A stretch of 64,000 nt of DNA from Pseudoalteromonas carrageenovora IAM 12662 (GTDB lineage Bacteria > Pseudomonadota > Gammaproteobacteria > Enterobacterales > Alteromonadaceae). The stretch lies in assembly GCF_900239935.1 (NCBI RefSeq), contig NZ_LT965929.1:158501-222500 (forward strand). The letters are read 5' to 3'. Position numbers and translations under genes: made by a program. The notes below the pieces were generated by a model. The model was not told the DNA's origin. It searched no databases and saw only the letters and a program-made list of their open reading frames with translations. This document shows, piece after piece, positions 47,363 to 59,236 of this stretch (position 1 is the stretch's first letter; each line of letters starts with the position of its first letter).

Positions 47363-48256
47363 CTAACTTTCGTTAAAGTGTTGCAATGTATGCTCTATTA
47401 ACAGTCGCACTCGATAAGGGATTTGTTTTCTGTCGCGATAAAGTATAGAAAATGGCTGCCCGTTACTTTTCCAGTCAGGAAGAATACGTTTAAGCTTTGC
47501 GGCTTCTATAAGAGGCAATGCTATATAATCAGGAATGTAGCTAATGCCTGCACCAGACTCAACGGCTTGTTTCATCATTTGAATTTCATCAACCTCTAAC
47601 CGGACATGCGTGTTTGGATTAAAACTGTATTCTTCACGCGTTTGCTGGTTTTTTAACTGCCACGGAACTAGCCCAACACACGTAATTTTTGGGTGCTGCT
47701 CTAATTGTTTTGGATGGGTAATAGATTGGGAACTATGGTTTGGGTGAGCACAAAGCACATTATGAGTAAGTTTAAGCTCTCTAATAACCCAATTATCAAT
47801 GGCAGGGTTTCTTACTCTAAACGCTATATCAATCCCTTCTTTTTCAATATCAATAAGGTTATTTGAAAAGCGTAAATCTAGTTGAATATTGGGATACTGC
47901 AGTAAAAAATCACAAAAAATGGCACTTAAAAAGTGTTTACCCATGTAAATGGGGGCAGAGATCCTGATTTTCCCTTTAGGTTGGTCTTTCTCATCACAAA
48001 GTGCTTGCTCTATACACTCCACCTCGTCAAATAACTTACGATAGCGATCGTAATATAACTCGCCAGTATGCGTTAGCGTTACTCGATGAGCATCTCGATT
48101 GAGTAGCGTTAATTGAAGAGCTTGCTCTAATAGACGTATTCTACGGCTTAAGGTTGATAGTGACATATCAAGATTTGCTGATGCTTTTTTAAAGCTACCC
48201 AGTTTTACTATGGTGCAAAAGTAACGTAAATCATCGAGAGAATAACTAGCTGCCAT
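47363..48256 (-). CDS. LysR family transcriptional regulator
   Basis: 297 aa. The winged helix-turn-helix is at residues 5-65 (DDLRYFCTIVKLGSFKKASANLDMSLSTLSRRIRLLEQAL). The effector-binding domain begins near 93 (GKIRISAPIYMGKHFLSAIFC). It is convergent with the frameshifted transporter (42-base gap), so it does not share a promoter region with it; the target is unknown. AGGAGG precedes the start. Confidence 0.92.
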   Translation of the reverse strand: MAASYSLDDLRYFCTIVKLGSFKKASANLDMSLSTLSRRIRLLEQALQLTLLNRDAHRVTLTHTGELYYDRYRKLFDEVECIEQALCDEKDQPKGKIRISAPIYMGKHFLSAIFCDFLLQYPNIQLDLRFSNNLIDIEKEGIDIAFRVRNPAIDNWVIRELKLTHNVLCAHPNHSSQSITHPKQLEQHPKITCVGLVPWQLKNQQTREEYSFNPNTHVRLEVDEIQMMKQAVESGAGISYIPDYIALPLIEAAKLKRILPDWKSNGQPFSILYRDRKQIPYRVRLLIEHTLQHFNES

Positions 48257-48591: not shown

Positions 48592-50838
48592 TTAGAAACG
48601 ATAACTTGCGCCTAAATAAACAGTACGGCCATTAACCGTTGTGTTGTATAAACGATTATTAGAGTCTGAATATTGCTCTTCTCGTTCATTAGTTAAGTTA
48701 CTGGCTTCTATAGTGAGTTTTAGCTTTTCATTTACCTGATAAAAAGCAGATGCATCTATGTATGTGCTGGCATGAAAACCGTTTTCGTCTTCATCGCCGT
48801 TACCCGCTTGTACCGCTGCAATATAGTCACTTCTATAAGCGGCTGCAACGCGAGCGCCCCATGAGTCAGAATCGTAATATACTGTAAAGTTACCAGAGTG
48901 TTCTGAAAGCCCTGGGAACGATTTATATTGATCAACACCTGAGTTACCCACATTACGGTACAGCGCTTCACCATCAGCAAATGTATAATTCGCAATAACA
49001 CCTAAGTTATTAAAAGGAGCAGGTAAAAAGTCGAGATCTCGTTGAAAAGCCAGTTCCCAGCCACTAATATCACTTTCATCTAAGTTTTGTGGCTGAATAA
49101 CGGTAAAAACAGTACTTGCAGTTTGCGGGTTGCCGTTTTCGTCTACGTCGCCTAATAAACTAACAGGGTAGCCAGTCTGGCTGTATGGAATGTCATATGT
49201 TTCGGTGATAATGAAATTATCAATAGATTTATGGAAGTAACTTACGGCTGCATACCCTATATTTTCAAAGTAATATTCAACTGAAAAGTCGAAATTAACT
49301 GATTCATAAGGTTTAAGGTTTGGGTTTCCTGAACTGATACTTAGGCCATTGGTTGATGTGGCATCATTTTGTACCACACCTGTTGGCACTAATGCAGCGA
49401 GTGAAGGGCGGGTGAGATTTTCGCCATAACTTGCACGTAGCACTAAACTGTTATTACTATCCCACACTAAATTTATAGCGGGTAGTAACCCTGAATAGGT
49501 ATTTTCAACGTCAACTACTTCTCCATTTATTAACCCTATAGCATTGGTAGTTGTATCGTAATGGCGTACGCCCGCATTACCCATTAAGTAACCTGAGCCT
49601 AGCTCCCATTCAGCTTCGTACTGCAAATAAGCGCCAAAGGTTTTTTCTTGTACGTTATCGGTAAAATCAGGGTTATCTAAATTAGGATCGATATTCATAC
49701 TCGCTAGAGTGCCTAGTACATCAACACTTACCCATTGTTGCTTATTGTGTGCGGTATTGGTAAATGTAAGGCTTGAATCTACCGTGTCATCCAGTACACC
49801 ATCTTCCCAGTCACTACGGTTAATATTATTAGATTTACTTTCACCGTTTTCACTTTCAAACTTTTTATTAGATACACCAAACTTTATATTTGAAGCATTG
49901 TTTAGTGTGTAATTAAAATCTAATTTTACAGAGTCGAATGTATTAGTTATTTCTTCTTCAGATATATCAATTTCGTGATAACGAAATAAACTACTGTCTG
50001 TAGGCTCAAACCCGTATGTGTTTTCACCATAATAAGCATCTTGGCGGTAATCAATTGTTTCATCGCCAAATGTTTCTAGATAAACTTTAACACTCCCGGT
50101 ATTAAATTTAGTTTCTGAGCGCCCCACGAGAGCGGTCATATTTAAATCTTCTGTAATTTGCCAGTCACTTTTTAATACAAATTGGCTTATTTTAGTGTCT
50201 GCATATTGGCTGCGGCTTTCTGAGTGTATTGCGGCATCTTCGTATACTGAGTAGATAGCGTCGTTATTTTCATTTATTTCAAGTGTGGTGAGCTTTGAGC
50301 ATACCTGCTCGTTGTTATAAGCAGGGCCTGTACAGCCAAGAGCTGTTGAGCTTGAGCCTCGGTTTTGTAAGTGGAATTCACTGCGATCATTATTCAGTTC
50401 ACCATATAAAGCATCAAAGCTAAATTCAAGGTTATTATTTGGGCGATATTGCAGAGCAAGGGTCGTCCCTAAACGTTCCTGTTCGTTTTCAAATAATGAA
50501 TAGCGGCTACCACGTGAAAAGCTCACTTCTTCGTTGTTAATTTTATCTTGTAATTCATCTGATAGTTCAGATATATCTGAGCCTGATGCATTTTTTTTGC
50601 GCCAGCGATAAGTATTGTAACCTTGCTCATTTACATCACGTTTGCTGTATGCAATTGAAAATAATGCACCAAATTTATCATCCCATGTATTTGAGATAAG
50701 CGCTGCAACTCGTGGGCTAACATCATCGGTTTGTGAGTTGTCGCCAAGTTGACCTGATAGAGCAGTATTAAAACCATCAAAGTCAAATGGTTTAGCTGTA
50801 TGAAGCCCAACAGTGCCGCCTATGCCGCCTTCATCCAT
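48592..50838 (-). pseudogene. TonB-dependent receptor, C-terminal fragment after a frameshift
   Basis: An open frame of 748 codons from an internal ATG. It begins MDEGGIGGTVGLHTAKPFDF, the end of the plug domain, and contains the whole 22-strand barrel, ending in YLGASYRF with the terminal aromatic. It lacks a signal peptide. The plug start and signal are in the frame at 50820-51314, and one extra A in the A6 tract (plus-strand T-run 50854-50859) would join the two into one receptor of about 905 aa. It lies downstream of PI-PLC in the ECF-controlled operon. The substrate may be an inositol-phosphate-containing compound. Confidence 0.75.
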
Positions 50839-52428: not shown

Positions 52429-52456
52429 AGAGCGAGCGTTTATAAATTAGGGGACA
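52429..52456 (-). promoter_or_regulatory. ECF-type promoter 1, for the PI-PLC and TonB receptor genes
   Basis: On the minus strand TGTCCCC (52456-52450) is followed after exactly 15 bases by CGCTCT (52434-52429). The inferred transcription start is about 10-15 bases before the PI-PLC start codon at 52409. The identical heptamer, spacing and hexamer recur at two other promoters of the locus. Confidence 0.75.
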
Positions 52457-52513
52457 CAAAAATATGCATTTAATAAAAGTTTCATAATAGAAAAGCATGT
52501 TTATAAAATTTTA

Positions 52514-52541
52514 TGTCCCCTTTTATCCATTACCGCGCTCT
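52514..52541 (+). promoter_or_regulatory. ECF-type promoter 2, for the metallophosphoesterase gene
   Basis: TGTCCCC (52514-52520), 15 bases, CGCTCT (52536-52541), 36 bases before the ATG at 52578. It is divergent from promoter 1, with 57 A+T-rich bases between the two -35 elements. Confidence 0.75.
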
Positions 52542-52577
52542 AAATAATAAGTGAAATAAAAACGGGATAAAGCCATC

Positions 52578-54365
52578 ATGATTAGAGTCAAAGTACTATG
52601 GTTAGCACTATGGATTGGGTTATGTATTACATGCAAAGTAAGTGCTATTGAGTACTTTGAGGTTAAAAGTGCGCCGCAGATGGAGACGGTTAAAGTGGCC
52701 TTTTTAGCCGATATTCATCTACATGATATTTTTGCTAATTTACATGACGTAGATAATATAGAACTCCCAAAGGACGTTACCTCAAAGCAACCATTACTAA
52801 TGCGTAGTATGCTTGCCCAGCTCCATTCAACACGTCTTTTTAATGAAAATTATTTTGTTTTTTTACATGTATTAGATGAACTAGCCGAAAAAAAAATAAA
52901 ACTAGTCGCCTTACCTGGCGATTTTACTGATGATGGCCAACCTATTAATGTGCGGGCACTGGCGCGTATTTTAGGTCATTATGAAAAGAAATATGGAATG
53001 CGTTTTTTTGCCATACCGGGTAATCACGATCCCGTAAAACCATATACAACACCGGCAGGTAAAGCGGACTTTTTAATGGCGCAAGGTAAAGAGTTTGGTG
53101 TTTATAGTTATCAACATGAAAAATGTATGGCTAAGCTGGCAGTATGTGATGATGGTTTAAAAAACTGGGGATACGCTGAAATACTAAGCACACTCAATGA
53201 CTTTGGGTTTAGTAAACATAAAGGTGATGTGCTATATGAAACGCCTTATAAAAACCGAGAGTTTATATGGTGTAACCCCAATAACAAAAAACACTGTATC
53301 ACCATGCCCGATGCGAGCTATTTAGTTGAGCCTATAAAAGGGGTTTGGTTAATGGCCATTGATGCCAATGTGTATGCACCGCAATGGCAAAACTCACCGC
53401 TCACTTTTAAAGGGTCGTCTGGTGCCGGCTATAATGCTTTAATTGATGCAAAGCCTCTATTGTTAAAGTGGATAAAAACGGTTGTAAAAAGAGCCAAAAC
53501 TCAAAATAAAACACTGGTTGCATTTAGTCACTTTCCAATGGGGGAGTTTTACGACAATGCAAATGACGAATTACATAAAGTGTTTAGCCGTGGTCATTTT
53601 TCTCTACCAAGAGTGCCAACACCACGTACAGCAAAAATACTGGCAGATACAGGGTTAACGCTCCATTTTGCAGGGCATATGCATTTAAATGATACGGCGC
53701 TGATAACCAGTAATCAGCACTCCCAGTTAGTTAATGTGCAAGTGCCAAGTTTAGCGGCTTACAAAGCGGCCTATAAAGTTGTAGAGCTAAATTTAGCTAA
53801 GCAAACCGCGCTTATTAGTACCCATACATTAGACGATGTGCCGGGTTTTAATAACTTATTTAGTTTATATGAAAAGGAATGGCAGTATCGTAACTTGCAT
53901 AATCTTAGTAATTTTGACCGCACTATTTTGAACTCAAAGAGTTATGGTGATTTTACCAAGCAACATTTATTTGGGCTGATTAAACAGCGTTTTATAAAAC
54001 GCGATTGGCCTAAAAATTTAGTGGCATGGTTAAATGACAATCATCATTTAGCCGATTGGTTTTTAAATATGCAATGTTTAAATGAAGCACCGCCTAATTT
54101 GCTCTCTCAGCTTGAAGCTGTATCGACAAAAGAATGGCTTCAAGATTTTTATTTATTACGAAATGGTGATGTAACAGCAGATATAACAGCTAAAAAGCGT
54201 ATTACTTATCAACAACTAAATACTTTTTTAGCACAATCGACATGTAAAACAGATACGCAAATACAGCAATACTTAGCCCTGTTAATAAAAGTAATGGCAA
54301 AATTTAGTCAACATACCCAGGGGGAGAATTTCCGCGTTGATTTAAAAACAGGAAAAATCATTTAA
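52578..54365 (+). CDS. secreted calcineurin-type metallophosphoesterase
   Basis: 595 aa with a signal peptide (MIRVKVLWLALWIGLCITCKVSA). The metallophosphoesterase domain covers about 35-390: FLADIHLHD (DxH), LPGDFTDDGQP (GDxxDDG), IPGNHDP (GNHD), AFSHFPMGEF and HFAGHMHLND (GHxH), a full dimetal set. The C-terminal ~200 residues are helical and unrecognised. It probably removes phosphate from a released product such as an inositol phosphate, which is inference from the neighbours. It ends with a 4-base overlap with the convergent receptor gene. Confidence 0.9.
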   Translation: MIRVKVLWLALWIGLCITCKVSAIEYFEVKSAPQMETVKVAFLADIHLHDIFANLHDVDNIELPKDVTSKQPLLMRSMLAQLHSTRLFNENYFVFLHVLDELAEKKIKLVALPGDFTDDGQPINVRALARILGHYEKKYGMRFFAIPGNHDPVKPYTTPAGKADFLMAQGKEFGVYSYQHEKCMAKLAVCDDGLKNWGYAEILSTLNDFGFSKHKGDVLYETPYKNREFIWCNPNNKKHCITMPDASYLVEPIKGVWLMAIDANVYAPQWQNSPLTFKGSSGAGYNALIDAKPLLLKWIKTVVKRAKTQNKTLVAFSHFPMGEFYDNANDELHKVFSRGHFSLPRVPTPRTAKILADTGLTLHFAGHMHLNDTALITSNQHSQLVNVQVPSLAAYKAAYKVVELNLAKQTALISTHTLDDVPGFNNLFSLYEKEWQYRNLHNLSNFDRTILNSKSYGDFTKQHLFGLIKQRFIKRDWPKNLVAWLNDNHHLADWFLNMQCLNEAPPNLLSQLEAVSTKEWLQDFYLLRNGDVTADITAKKRITYQQLNTFLAQSTCKTDTQIQQYLALLIKVMAKFSQHTQGENFRVDLKTGKII

Positions 54366-57217
54366 TACTGATAACTCAACCCTAAGTAAAAGGTACGTCC
54401 ACTTGTGGTTGAGTTGTAAGCTCTGAGGGTTGAATTACTGTATTGTCGCTCTTGTTCATTACTGAGATTAAATGCGCTAAATTTAAGTTTCCAATAATTA
54501 GAAAAATAATAATTTACACTTGCATCCCAATAGGTGGTCGGCATAAATCCGGTTTCGTTTTCATCGAGTAAAAGGCTGCCAGCACGCACTAAATATTTAT
54601 CTCTAAAAATAGCGCCGAGTTTAAAATTGAATTTGGGGTGGTCGTAAAAAATCATACTTGATGCGGTAATTTTAGATAAAAAAGGCAGGTTTTTTTTAAA
54701 TAAAGCAGTGCCATTATTTGAGTCGTAATAGGTGACTTTACCTTTATTATAAGCAGCTTGTATATTAATGCCCCAATCAGAATTATGTATTAAGTAGTTT
54801 AAACTTACCTCGGCTCCCCACTGATAGGCCGTTTCTGCATTACTTAGCCAAAGTAATTGACTATCGGAGGTTGTAGGCGGCGAACCTTCAAATAAAGGCG
54901 CTTGTGTTGTGACTATGTAATCCTCTAAATCTTTATAAAAAAGTGATATGTTAAACGAACTGTGACTACTAAAATCAGCCTCTAAGGAAATATCGCTATT
55001 ATAAGATAAGTAAGGTTTTAGATTTGAGTTAAATATGTATTTTGTACTACTGGGGGTATCGTTTGAGCCATCAAAATTGAGTGAATTTAGTAATGGTTTT
55101 GAATAGTTTTTGGAAAGTCCTGCACGAAATCGCCAATTATCGTTAATAAAATATGACCCATTAAAAGTTGGAAGCCATAGACTATACAAAATCGGAGAGT
55201 AAGGCGCTTGAGTGTAAGATGTTATAGATTCTGATTGGTAACGTACACCTATATGAGCCTCCCATTTTTCTTGCTCTGTACTCAATAGAGTATAAGCACC
55301 TCTGCTATATTCCTTTATATGTTCAGCTTTAGTCGTGATTAAAAAATTATTGGCTTGTACATTAAATGGGTCAATGCCATAAAGCTTGAGTGCCTCATTC
55401 GTGTTTATTTTTAACCACTGCTGTTTTTTATGTGCATTTTGCGATGAAACATACGATGCAGGAAGGTCAATTAATTGTTGTGGTGTATCGGGTATTTCAT
55501 TAAAAAAAATATCGTTTTGCTGTGCGTTATTCATTTTATTTTCAAACAGAGTCCAGTCAGCCCCAAATTGAAGAGTTATTAAACTATTAACGTCATATTG
55601 AAAATCTAATTTTGCGAAGGTGTACTCACTATTTGAATTGTATTGCTCTACATCACCATGATGCATTTGCCACATCGTCGGATTTTTCAAGTTTTCGCTG
55701 TACTTAATATCTGCATAAAATGGCGTTTTACGATAATCAATTGTAACGTCACTTACACCTTGGGTATAAATCTTATTGCTGAAAGGAATGTCATACTTTG
55801 AGCGCTCGTTTCCTAATATGGCGTTTATTTTCCAATTTTGATCTACTTGTTGTGTAAGCGAGAGCACGCCTTGCTGATATGCCGTTTTTATTTTTTGGGC
55901 TCTACTTTCAGTAGCGACTCTTGCATTTTCATAACGTGCATACACAAGCTCATTATTTTTATTAGCTTGAATGTCTTTAATTGTTGTTAGCCCTATAATT
56001 ATAGGCGTTGACTGATCCCCCCTTGGGTATAAATGATATTCATGCCTATCACCTTTTAAAAAACCTGAGAGCATATCAAAATCAACATGGGTGGTTTCAT
56101 TTTTGTACTCTACAGATAGGTTTGCCCCAAAGCGCTGCTGGGTTGCTTGCCATACCGAGTAGCGATTACCGCGAGGGATTATATAATCGCCTTGAGTTAA
56201 ATGCTGAGCTTGTGATTGAGTTAACGCCGAGAGATCAGCGCCTTCTATGGCAATATTTCGCCAGCGAAATGTATTAGCGCCTTGCTCTAACGATTCTCTG
56301 TTTGTGTACGCAACGCTTGCAAGTACCCCCCAATTATTCCAGGTGTTAGAAATTAAGCTTGAATAACGCGTTGCGCCAGTACCTGTATAGTCGTTGTAGC
56401 CAAGCTCAGGGGTAATAACAAATTTAAACCCCTCATTATCTAAGGGGTTTATAGTTTTCAGTGCCATAGTACCAGATATTCCACCTGCTATTTTGTCGGC
56501 AGAATAGGCTTTAATTACATGAATTTGTTTAAATAGTTCGGCAGGTAATATATTAAAATCGAAAGAACGATCGCGCTGTTTTTGCACTCGGCTATCCATC
56601 GGTGAATCGTTATTTGCTAAGACAGGCATGCCGTTAAGTGTGACCAAACTAAAATCAGGATAACTGCCACGTATTGATACTTGGCGTCCTTCGCCAGCTT
56701 CGCGAGTAATGGCTACACCCGGAATATACTGTAAGGCTTCAGCCAAGTTAGTATTTGGTATATCGGTAATATCTTGTGCTGAAATTGCTTCGCTAATCGT
56801 TTTATTATTGTGTTTTAAGTTTCGTGAGCGAGCCAACGAATAGCGGATACCCTTTACTGTTATTTCTTCAAGTGTTTCGTTATCGTTTACTACTTTTTTT
56901 GGAAAAATAACAAAACCATCGTTTTGAATTTTATATGTTAATTCACTGTCTTCTAACAAATAATCCAATGCTTGAGCAAGTGTATGATCGCCAATTAAGG
57001 TGGATGTAGTTTTGTCGTCGATAAGTGAAGGGTTACTACTAAAAGAGACTGCATACGCATTTGCTACTTCTCTTAAGCTGTCACTGAGAGAACCGGCAGG
57101 TATATAAACAAACGTATGTATGTTTTTTGCGGCACTTGGCATTGCTGTTAAGCAACTAACAGCAATAAAAAAGTACACTAAAATACGTTTATTTAATGTA
57201 CACACATGTTTTAGCAT
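54362..57217 (-). CDS. FecA-like TonB-dependent receptor with STN signalling domain
   Basis: 951 aa. After a signal peptide (VYFFIAVSCLTAMPSAAK) an STN domain lies at about residues 40-108 (SLSDSLREVANAYAVSFSSNPSLID, LAQALDYLLEDSELTYKI). The plug (EEITVKGIRYSLARSRN, IPNTNLAEALQYIPGVAITREAGEGRQVSIRG) and a long beta-barrel ending FYLGLSYQY follow. STN receptors touch FecR when ligand binds and so activate the ECF sigma. It is third in the sigma-FecR-receptor order, 24 bases after fecR. The ligand is unknown. It resembles the frameshifted receptor at 48592-51314 in plug and barrel ends. Confidence 0.93.
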   Translation of the reverse strand: MLKHVCTLNKRILVYFFIAVSCLTAMPSAAKNIHTFVYIPAGSLSDSLREVANAYAVSFSSNPSLIDDKTTSTLIGDHTLAQALDYLLEDSELTYKIQNDGFVIFPKKVVNDNETLEEITVKGIRYSLARSRNLKHNNKTISEAISAQDITDIPNTNLAEALQYIPGVAITREAGEGRQVSIRGSYPDFSLVTLNGMPVLANNDSPMDSRVQKQRDRSFDFNILPAELFKQIHVIKAYSADKIAGGISGTMALKTINPLDNEGFKFVITPELGYNDYTGTGATRYSSLISNTWNNWGVLASVAYTNRESLEQGANTFRWRNIAIEGADLSALTQSQAQHLTQGDYIIPRGNRYSVWQATQQRFGANLSVEYKNETTHVDFDMLSGFLKGDRHEYHLYPRGDQSTPIIIGLTTIKDIQANKNNELVYARYENARVATESRAQKIKTAYQQGVLSLTQQVDQNWKINAILGNERSKYDIPFSNKIYTQGVSDVTIDYRKTPFYADIKYSENLKNPTMWQMHHGDVEQYNSNSEYTFAKLDFQYDVNSLITLQFGADWTLFENKMNNAQQNDIFFNEIPDTPQQLIDLPASYVSSQNAHKKQQWLKINTNEALKLYGIDPFNVQANNFLITTKAEHIKEYSRGAYTLLSTEQEKWEAHIGVRYQSESITSYTQAPYSPILYSLWLPTFNGSYFINDNWRFRAGLSKNYSKPLLNSLNFDGSNDTPSSTKYIFNSNLKPYLSYNSDISLEADFSSHSSFNISLFYKDLEDYIVTTQAPLFEGSPPTTSDSQLLWLSNAETAYQWGAEVSLNYLIHNSDWGINIQAAYNKGKVTYYDSNNGTALFKKNLPFLSKITASSMIFYDHPKFNFKLGAIFRDKYLVRAGSLLLDENETGFMPTTYWDASVNYYFSNYWKLKFSAFNLSNEQERQYSNSTLRAYNSTTSGRTFYLGLSYQY

Positions 57218-57241
57218 AAGAGTTTAATCAACATACTTCAT

Positions 57242-58219
57242 TTAAGGTCGCGTTAAATGAAGTTCGTTGCTCTTTTTTTCTACATTCCAGTTGTAAGTAG
57301 ATGCTATTAGCATAAGGCTTTGTTGCGGCGTTTCGAGATTAAATCGTCCGCTAATTAAAGTATTATTGAGTGCGTTATCTACTTTAATTACCATAGGGCT
57401 ATAACGCTGCAATTGTTTGATAACAGTGGTTAGAGGTTCTTTTTTTGCATCAATCCAACCCATTCGCCAAGCAGGGAGTTGTGCCAACTGCTGGCTATAA
57501 TCTACAGCTATATGTCCATTTTTTATAACAGCTTGTTGAGAGGGAGTTAATATCACTTTATCTAAGGCCGAGACTTCTACCCTGCCTTCGTACACTGTTA
57601 CCACTACTTCATCCTTATTGCGCTCTACATCAAAAGAAGTACCTAGTACTTTAATGCTTGCTTGTCCGGAATTTATTATAAATGGCCGTGTTTTATCTTT
57701 GGCTACATCAAAAAAAACCTGTCCTTTTTTTAATTCGATTTGCCTAGAGTGTGGTAGTAAGTGTGCAGTCAACTCACTATCTGCATTTAAGTGTAAATAT
57801 GAACCGTCATCTAATAACTTAGATACACGTTTGCCTAAACGTGCTTCTAAAAGCTGAGGTAGGTTAGTTTCAACTGCTGTTTTTGCAATAGGTGTTGGTG
57901 TAAACGCTTGTCCAGGTATAGCAAGCCAGTACACTGCAAAGGCAATAGCGCTAAAGCTTGCCGCTAACGCGAGCACAGGGAAATTTCTAGAGCGTTTAGT
58001 GTTAGGCGCAATTTCTGGAGTCGCTAAATTATTTTGTTTAGTGTAAATGTATAGAGCTTGTTTAACAGCAGGATCGCCAAATACATTGGCTATTTTTTCA
58101 AATGCATTCTTATTTTCTGCGCATTTTAACCAAAGCGATAGTTCTTCACGGTCATGATCATTTAAATCATTAATCCGGTCTAGCCAATCTGCTGCCTGTT
58201 CTAAGCGTTGTTCGTTCAT
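57242..58219 (-). CDS. FecR family anti-sigma/sigma-regulator protein
   Basis: 325 aa. The N-terminal DUF4880 cytoplasmic anchor to sigma (LEQAADWLDRINDLNDHDREELSLWLKCAENKNAFEKI) is followed by a membrane helix (about 79-100, FPVLALAASFSAIAFAVYWLAI), then the periplasmic FecR domain (LLDDGSYLHLNADSELTAHLLPHSRQIELKKGQVFFDVAKD) and a C-terminal STN-like DUF4974 part. It relays the receptor signal to the ECF sigma. The start is 63 bases after the sigma stop, and the ECF motif lies in that gap. Confidence 0.93.
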   Translation of the reverse strand: MNEQRLEQAADWLDRINDLNDHDREELSLWLKCAENKNAFEKIANVFGDPAVKQALYIYTKQNNLATPEIAPNTKRSRNFPVLALAASFSAIAFAVYWLAIPGQAFTPTPIAKTAVETNLPQLLEARLGKRVSKLLDDGSYLHLNADSELTAHLLPHSRQIELKKGQVFFDVAKDKTRPFIINSGQASIKVLGTSFDVERNKDEVVVTVYEGRVEVSALDKVILTPSQQAVIKNGHIAVDYSQQLAQLPAWRMGWIDAKKEPLTTVIKQLQRYSPMVIKVDNALNNTLISGRFNLETPQQSLMLIASTYNWNVEKKSNELHLTRP

Positions 58220-58251
58220 TAAAAAACCTAATCTGCGTTGATTAAATATAA

Positions 58252-58279
58252 AGAGCGTAAAAATTTAAAAAAGGGGACA
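58252..58279 (-). promoter_or_regulatory. ECF-type promoter 3, for the fecR-like and STN-receptor genes
   Basis: On the minus strand TGTCCCC (58279-58273), 15 bases, CGCTCT (58257-58252), ending 33 bases before the FecR start. It lies inside the sigma-fecR gap, so fecR and the receptor can be raised without raising the sigma gene. Confidence 0.75.
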
Positions 58280-58810: not shown

Positions 58811-58904
58811 TACTCGCTCTAGAATTTTATTTTAAATAAATAATAAGCGAATAATATGACCAGCTTATTACAAGCAAGTTGGTGCGTAAATTTAAAGAAA
58901 GTAA

Positions 58905-58945
58905 TTGATTAAGATCAATTGTTCTATATTGATAAAGTGCATAAT
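58905..58945 (+). promoter_or_regulatory. FNR-type box and -10 of the yfhL promoter
   Basis: TTGAT-TAAG-ATCAA (58905-58918) is a perfect FNR consensus, extended to a 7-bp inverted repeat (AATTGAT/ATCAATT). CATAAT (58940-58945) is a good -10. The box centre lies 28.5 bases before the -10 box, the class II position, and about 73 bases before the GTG start of yfhL. Confidence 0.75.
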
Positions 58946-58984: not shown

Positions 58985-59236
58985 GTGGCTCTACTTATAA
59001 ATAACAAGTGCATTAACTGCGATATTTGTGTTGCCGAGTGCCCGAATACGGCCATTTATATGGGGTCAAAAACTTATCAAATAGATCCAGCAAAATGCAC
59101 AGAATGTGTTGGGCATTATGATAACCCTACGTGCGTTATTGTATGTCCAATTAATTGTATAAAACCCGATCCTAATAATCGTGAAAACCTCGATGAATTA
59201 GCTCAAAAGTATGTCAGGTTAACTAGTTCGCATTAA
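58985..59236 (+). CDS. yfhL: YfhL family 2[4Fe-4S] ferredoxin
   Basis: 83 aa from GTG 58985. The first cluster motif is CINCDICVAECP (residues 9-20); the second is CTECVGHYDNPTCVIVCP (about 38-55) with the family's extended CxxC spacing. It is a small cytoplasmic electron carrier. From memory, YfhL has been linked to RNA hydroxylation by U32-family enzymes in E. coli, which fits its sharing a promoter design with trhP here. It is divergent from the ECF sigma gene. Confidence 0.93.
   Translation: MALLINNKCINCDICVAECPNTAIYMGSKTYQIDPAKCTECVGHYDNPTCVIVCPINCIKPDPNNRENLDELAQKYVRLTSSH

Follow-up and report, generated by a model that had tools for sequence, protein, structure and literature searches.

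Background

According to the available text of PMC9249621, the sigma factor HasI of Serratia marcescens transcribes the gene of its anti-sigma factor, hasS, and not its own gene. The same text describes fecIR of E. coli as one Fur-controlled unit that is not autoregulated, and FecI as the reader of the fecA promoter. For FecI of S. meliloti, transcript starts before fecR have been mapped and, as far as the accessible part of PMC6180224 goes, no motif was found. Canonical promoters of extracytoplasmic function (ECF) sigma factors have AAC as part of the -35 element and CGT as part of the -10 element, and prediction of ECF targets rests on known pairs and on autoregulated sigma factors, as given in the available portion of PMC8103513; the promoters of sigma factors that do not read their own gene are therefore hard to predict. 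Here we analyse a stretch of 64,000 nucleotides from Pseudoalteromonas carrageenovora IAM 12662 (contig NZ_LT965929.1, positions 158,501 to 222,500), referred to as the window, in which three copies of the motif TGTCCCC-N15-CGCTCT lie around the gene of a FecI-like ECF sigma factor.

We hold with good confidence the overall reading of this locus, in which the three copies would be promoters, the adjacent sigma factor their reader and a FecI/FecR/receptor cascade the wiring. The coordinates of all features are collected in Table 1.

Results

Proposed promoter sites in the window and the genome

The initial annotation of the window had claimed three exact copies of TGTCCCC-N15-CGCTCT, all pointing at genes, and had noticed no further copy. 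Coordinates and strands of the three sites were confirmed with 0 mismatches, and the remaining seven matches in the window have 2-3 mismatches. Allowing at most 3 mismatches, the window holds 10 matches against 5.28 expected (standard deviation 2.72; 5 of 100 shuffles reach 10). The motif is not common genome-wide: the exact form occurs three times in 4,584,980 bases (3 contigs), each time at this locus, and 0 times for a control read backwards. By chance, roughly 0.14 copies of a pattern with 13 fixed bases would be expected in 4.58 Mb when both strands are counted.

Near-matches carry no signal. With at most 2 mismatches the whole genome gave 18 matches and the backward control 26, and a looser form (TGTCCCC, 17-19 bases, TCW) gave 9 and 14, respectively. 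The six looser-form matches outside the locus were inspected for the layout of open reading frames (ORFs) only. With no fewer matches in the backward control, near-matches elsewhere in the genome were rejected as chance.

The end of CGCTCT is 36 bases from the start codon of the metallophosphoesterase (MPE) gene (ATG 52578) and 32 bases from that of fecR (ATG 58219). For the phosphoinositide phospholipase C (PI-PLC) gene the distance is 19 bases to TTG 52409 or 31 to the in-frame ATG 52397, which is kept in three same-genus homologues.

Geometry of the proposed promoter

The geometry was assessed on 49 different sites before named genes, selected by the -35 word TGTCCCC alone. TC stands 18 bases past the last C of this word in 41 of the 49 sites; the other tested offsets reach at most 7, with a mean of 2.1. 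The count is 29 of 37 when four same-genus loci are left out and 25 of 29 after near-copies are also dropped. At the position just before the TC, 43 of the 49 sites have G or C. The triplet GTC stands in 13 of the 49 and CTC in 23, and CGCTCT itself occurs in 13, three of these beyond the four same-genus loci.

Because a -10 core stands at one fixed distance in sites picked by TGTCCCC, we take CGCTCT to be a local version of an ECF promoter shared across the family, its first bases being local. As read from sequence, the family-wide code is TGTCCCC(T/G)TTT-N13-(C/G)TC(T/A), with TGTCCCC(T/G)TTT as the -35 and (C/G)TC(T/A) as the -10 element. The spacing given in the initial annotation holds outside the genus, and its -10 hexamer is better replaced by the shorter core.

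Three sites within one locus could be copies of each other, and chance or the duplication of one short sequence would then explain them. The spacers of the three sites differ from one another, however, both blocks are kept and the spacer sequence is not where the sigma factor is only about 40% identical, and the placement given below is strongly non-random. We regard this explanation as practically negligible.

Conservation within the genus

The locus is rare within the genus. At an E value of 1e-20 or lower, the sigma factor has matches in 7 of 108 same-genus genomes, four of which (the window genome, G014, G089 and G090) encode one at least 74% identical. The exact motif occurs in six of the 108; the four close-sigma genomes carry 3, 3, 2 and 2 copies, i.e. 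10 of the 12 in total, and the two stray copies, one each in G030 and G052, both lie within ORFs by coordinates.

Gene order around the sigma gene is identical in G014 (locus L035), G090 (L036) and G089 (L037). All three have the exact site before PI-PLC and a fecR site at the equivalent place, which recurs elsewhere in the family with changes in the -10. The MPE site is exact in L035 and has CTCTCT (L036) or GGCTCT (L037) as -10 with an intact -35. The motif is thus kept before orthologous genes in same-genus as well as family-level loci, and the sites go with the sigma factor in the genus, which supports the initial proposal that the adjacent FecI-like sigma factor reads them; it is very probably their reader. 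As a single case, the alignment row of the same-genus locus L038, whose genes have no TGTC(C/A)CC upstream, alone has tyrosine where the others have a region-4 arginine (R142 of the window sigma factor).

The sites could instead be an operator for a DNA-binding regulator such as the LysR-type protein encoded next to the second TonB-dependent receptor (TBDR2), and L035 and L036 retain this gene next to the locus. The 16.5 kb of L037 gave no LysR homologue, though all three sites are kept there, one of them altered in its -10, and the LysR-type protein is therefore the poorer candidate reader. The two-block layout with constant spacing and a TC core, present before matching genes in relatives, also argues against an operator, which we think highly unlikely.

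A real ECF promoter might also be read by another ECF sigma factor of the genome. A first look gave 25 candidate stretches for the sigma query in the window genome, so other sigma-like genes may exist. In a set of gammaproteobacterial loci where the sigma factor is 29-32% identical or none was found, the site stands before PI-PLC in L099, L100, L102 and L106, beside a sigma factor only 29-32% identical, and the exact site is absent before PI-PLC in L103, L104, L105, L107, L108 and L109. Since all exact copies in the window genome lie around this sigma gene, and the sites accompany it in the genus, a different reader is very unlikely.

Placement across the family

Sigma matches were found in 28 of 395 genomes drawn from the family. 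The genus and family searches together gave 37 distinct sigma matches, and 33 with locus sequence were examined. In 18 of these 33 loci TGTCCCC or TGTCACC lies at most 150 bases past the sigma stop codon, or in 19 when AGTCCCC (L041) is counted.

Placement was counted in 30 loci, namely 18 expanded family-level loci, five same-genus loci (the window and L035-L038) and 7 from a further set of 80 loci; L039 and L040 are outside this count. The 18 expanded loci, some of them without the word, were chosen from 26 after word status had been seen, so the choice was not blind. Left unexpanded were L053 and L055 (word present) and L060-L063, L065 and L066 (word absent, 32-40% identical). TGTCCCC was scored from -200 to +60 of each ORF start, and ORFs with fewer than 200 upstream bases were skipped. 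Near-copies among the counted loci are L035/L036, L095/L101 and L096/L097, and L068 and L091 seem to lie on a single contig. L094 was excluded as overlapping L080; its PI-PLC gene (partial in L080 and skipped) is without the word and its MPE gene has it.

TGTCCCC stands before PI-PLC in 16 of 21 cases, before MPE in 17 of 19 and before fecR in 14 of 27, the last figure rising to 19 of 27 with the variants TGTCACC and AGTCCCC. It stands before the sigma gene in 2 of 27, before TBDR2 in 2 of 26 (L074, L079) and before the receptor with an STN domain in 0 of 26, the window receptor included. Among other ORFs it precedes 7 of 225, all encoding NPP1 (four: L069, L074 twice, L093) or metallophosphoesterase (three: L075, L077, L084). 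The placement is non-random (Fisher p about 1e-30, a figure inflated by related loci). The word is absent before MPE in L067 and L083, the latter having CGTCCCC before a TonB-receptor ORF upstream of MPE. TGTCCCC is missing before PI-PLC in L070, L071, L079, L088 and L091, where L070 has CGTCCCC and L071 GGTCCCC.

Four loci (L073, L075, L077, L084) have TGTCACC before fecR together with a metallophosphoesterase of 970-984 aa behind TGTCCCC or TGTCACC. The examined stretches of these four gave no call for PI-PLC or for an enzyme of the 595-aa type.

Upstream region of the sigma gene

The initial annotation held that the sigma gene lacks the motif and is not simply autoregulated. Judged by sequence, 25 of the 27 sigma genes, with that of the window among them, agree with this, and L068 and L070, which have the site before sigma and none before fecR, do not. 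Upstream of the window sigma gene no site was found, the best leave-one-out profile score there being -3.4, where the three sites themselves reach 24.9 to 29.8. The conserved block directly before the gene (Table 1) is possibly its own, different promoter.

A small ferredoxin-like gene (58988-59233, plus strand) lies divergent from sigma. A palindrome seen by eye in the interval between the two, TTGAT-N4-ATCAA (58905-58918), was dropped, as it is not kept in the alignment of relatives.

A related site stands before an NPP1-like gene upstream of sigma in L072, L096 and L097. A reading of these as sigma-autoregulated is doubtful, and in L072 a terminator-like stem, seen by eye, separates the NPP1-like gene from sigma. 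In a tree of 32 sigma factors, L068, L070, L072, L096 and L097 form one group (99/99) nested among loci with a fecR site; the tree has several long branches, and its deeper branching is unsure. If the three loci are operons, which is uncertain, a single shift may have brought the promoter from a place behind sigma to one ahead of it. Most of the examined loci have the motif before fecR and two, L068 and L070, have it before sigma, so that the family offers a natural comparison of feedback designs.

Genes of the locus and proposed wiring

The features of a FecI/FecR/FecA-type system are present: ECF sigma regions 2 and 4, a neighbouring FecR-domain regulator and an STN-type TonB receptor. When compared with NCBIfam, the sigma factor is over the cut-off for sigma70-ECF, and the FecI models are under theirs. 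The STN receptor, which is the proposed signal receptor, is co-directional with fecR and without a site of its own. Gene direction and spacing suggest three units, each behind one site, i.e. fecR with the STN receptor, MPE alone, and PI-PLC with TBDR2.

PI-PLC has partial sequence matches to the solved structures 5fyo and 3h4w. TBDR2 is a single 907-aa ORF in L035, L036 and L037; in the window a frameshift at 50820-50838 (minus strand) gives two overlapping ORFs, and true loss and sequencing error are indistinguishable here.

Table 1. Proposed promoter sites, genes and related features of the window, and NPP1 genes in related loci (positions in the respective locus)
Feature	Position	Strand	Remarks
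Promoter site 1	52456-52429	minus	-35 TGTCCCC 52456-52450, 15-base spacer, -10 CGCTCT 52434-52429; before PI-PLC/TBDR2; 0 mismatches
Promoter site 2	52514-52541	plus	TGTCCCC-N15-CGCTCT before MPE, back to back with site 1; 0 mismatches
Promoter site 3	58279-58252	minus	TGTCCCC-N15-CGCTCT between sigma stop codon and fecR start; 0 mismatches
Conserved block directly upstream of sigma	58811-58863	minus	Alignment of four same-genus upstream regions; without TGTCCCC
FecI-like ECF sigma factor, 175 aa	58810-58283	minus	Sigma70_r4_2 1.7e-16, Sigma70_r2 3.6e-7; proposed reader of the sites
FecR-like sigma regulator/anti-sigma factor, 325 aa	58219-57242	minus	PF04773 2.1e-22; adjoins sigma
TonB-dependent receptor with N-terminal STN domain, 951 aa	57217-54362	minus	STN PF07660 2.4e-8 (above gathering score), Plug 2.9e-16, barrel 7.9e-25
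Metallophosphoesterase (MPE), 595 aa	52578-54365	plus	N-terminal signal peptide by eye
Ca2+-dependent-type phosphoinositide phospholipase C (PI-PLC)	52409-51336	minus	PF16670 2.5e-99, profile positions 2-329 of 329; likely start ATG 52397
Second TonB-dependent receptor (TBDR2)	51314-48592	minus	No STN domain found; co-directional with PI-PLC; two ORFs here
LysR-type gene	47363-48256		Adjoins TBDR2
NPP1 (NLP-family) gene sharing a locus with PI-PLC or sigma/FecR	L069 2924-3709		TGTCCCC site
NPP1 gene, same class	L074 6954-8658		TGTCCCC site
NPP1 gene, same class	L093 13936-14829		TGTCCCC site
NPP1 gene, same class	L099 7728-8516		Weaker site form
NPP1 gene, same class	L106 8239-9027		Weaker site form
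NPP1 gene, same class	L108 8377-9219		Weaker site form

The following wiring of FecI-like sigma factor, FecR and STN receptor is likely. The receptor would sense a ligand at the outer membrane and signal through FecR, which would free or activate the sigma factor. The sigma factor would then transcribe fecR with the STN receptor gene, MPE, and PI-PLC with TBDR2. Its own gene, with a motif-free upstream region, would not be among its targets, and the absence of the motif there implies that the feedback loop would run through the regulator and the receptor and not through the sigma factor. Substrates of the inositol-phospholipid type would be cleaved by PI-PLC, either outside the cell or at its surface. 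MPE would then act on the phosphorylated head group, and the resulting product would be imported by TBDR2.

Several observations weigh against this picture. Three same-genus loci are without TGTC(C/A)CC upstream of their genes, namely L038 (sigma 45%, receptor 51% identical) and L039 and L040 (sigma 39%). In the wider sample, 14 of the 33 sigma loci lack the word in the 150 bases past the sigma stop codon, and 8 of 27 have fecR without a site in any of the listed forms (L038, L068, L070, L072, L074, L096, L097, L101). TGTCACC also lies upstream of sigma in L075, L084 and L093, where no match to the -10 accompanies it. Sigma gene and sites share one locus, so that their co-occurrence is partly linkage. 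The 57 distant loci L110-L166 (mostly Bacteroidota, at least five Pseudomonadota), where TGTC(C/A)CC was found before PI-PLC in 0 cases, speak in favour of the picture, but as a weak control, since distance alone could explain the absence. The lipid function discussed below rests on domain names and neighbours.

Possible inositol-lipid function and NPP1 genes

As to function, we lean slightly towards the scavenging of head groups from inositol phospholipids or phosphosphingolipids. Loci of Bacteroidota pair PI-PLC and phosphoesterase with GH115/GH92, and this pairing, together with the NLP-type genes in relatives, suggests inositol-phospho(sphingo)lipid head groups. A regulon serving general phosphate or iron acquisition would fit the FecI-type systems reviewed in the available text of PMC9249621, which are iron and haem systems, and phosphate release is a possible role for a metallophosphoesterase. 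We consider it unlikely, given that FecA, CirA and other iron-receptor models match both receptors only below their cut-offs (the sole model above being the general TIGR01782) and that PI-PLC is frequent in the counted loci and, in 17 of the 57 more distant loci, occurs with phosphoesterase and GH115.

A more specific proposal is tentative. The FecI-type regulon with TGTCCCC-N18-TC(T/A) might sense and dismantle algal or plant inositol-phospho(sphingo)lipids of the glycosyl inositol phosphorylceramide (GIPC) kind, and NLP-type proteins might serve in it as lipid binders for nutrient scavenging, together with PI-PLC, phosphoesterase and a TonB receptor dedicated to the task. The regulon motif was seen in one Alteromonas-containing family and in one Cellvibrionaceae genome. 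The tie between a surface-signalling system and enzymes for inositol lipids, extended in relatives by NLP-type proteins, points to a testable substrate class, the head groups of algal or plant lipids.

Unlinked NPP1 genes were considered as members of the regulon and rejected. TGTCCCC lies upstream in 2 of 30 NPP1 loci (L186, L193), both of which are sigma loci (G254, G122), and was not found upstream of NPP1 in L187 (G182, with sigma elsewhere) or in L176 (beside a 33%-identical sigma match).

L107, from a metagenome-assembled genome of the Spongiibacteraceae, combines PI-PLC, metallophosphoesterase, TBDR2, glucuronate isomerase, a GH115 BLAST match and a weak NPP1-like protein. It is a possible glucuronate-inositol-lipid locus.

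Comparison with known systems

In the open-licence PMC literature (titles and abstract starts) no paper on a TGTCCCC sigma promoter was found, and published ECF-group logos could already contain it. In the same literature we found no paper on surface signalling with carbohydrate, none joining PI-PLC with TonB-dependent receptor, Alteromonas and inositol, and none on NPP1 in these genera; there are papers on GIPC with Bacteroides, none of them on inositol-lipid scavenging of such a kind by title. A full -35/-10 code could here be read from the letters alone. As it applies in many genomes, it allows members of the regulon to be called directly.

The proposed promoter resembles the canonical ECF type, as far as the accessible part of PMC8103513 describes it, in having two short blocks and perhaps in its -10 core, (C/G)TC, and differs from it in a -35, TGTCCCC, without AAC. 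Utilisation-type loci of Bacteroidota (L114 in detail) likewise have PI-PLC-C1 and a homologous metallophosphoesterase. They differ in carrying glycosidases, in L114 also a SusD protein and a hybrid two-component-type regulator, and in having no TGTC(C/A)CC before PI-PLC.

With E. coli FecI/FecR/FecA, as covered by the available text of PMC9249621, the locus shares an ECF sigma factor, FecR and a TonB receptor that carries a signalling domain. Unlike in E. coli, fecR lies behind a site of the sigma type, and the further targets would be lipid and phosphoester enzymes. The nearest published wiring that we found is that of HasI/HasS/HasR, with a FecI-type sigma factor and a promoter of the sigma type between the sigma and anti-sigma genes, predicted from sequence in our case. 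In the available text the HasI/HasS target sequence is TTTACGGGTTT (PMC9249621), which does not agree with TGTCCCC-N15-CGCTCT. The Has system takes up haem, as described there, whereas in our locus fecR and the STN receptor gene lie behind one site and two further units carry it as well.

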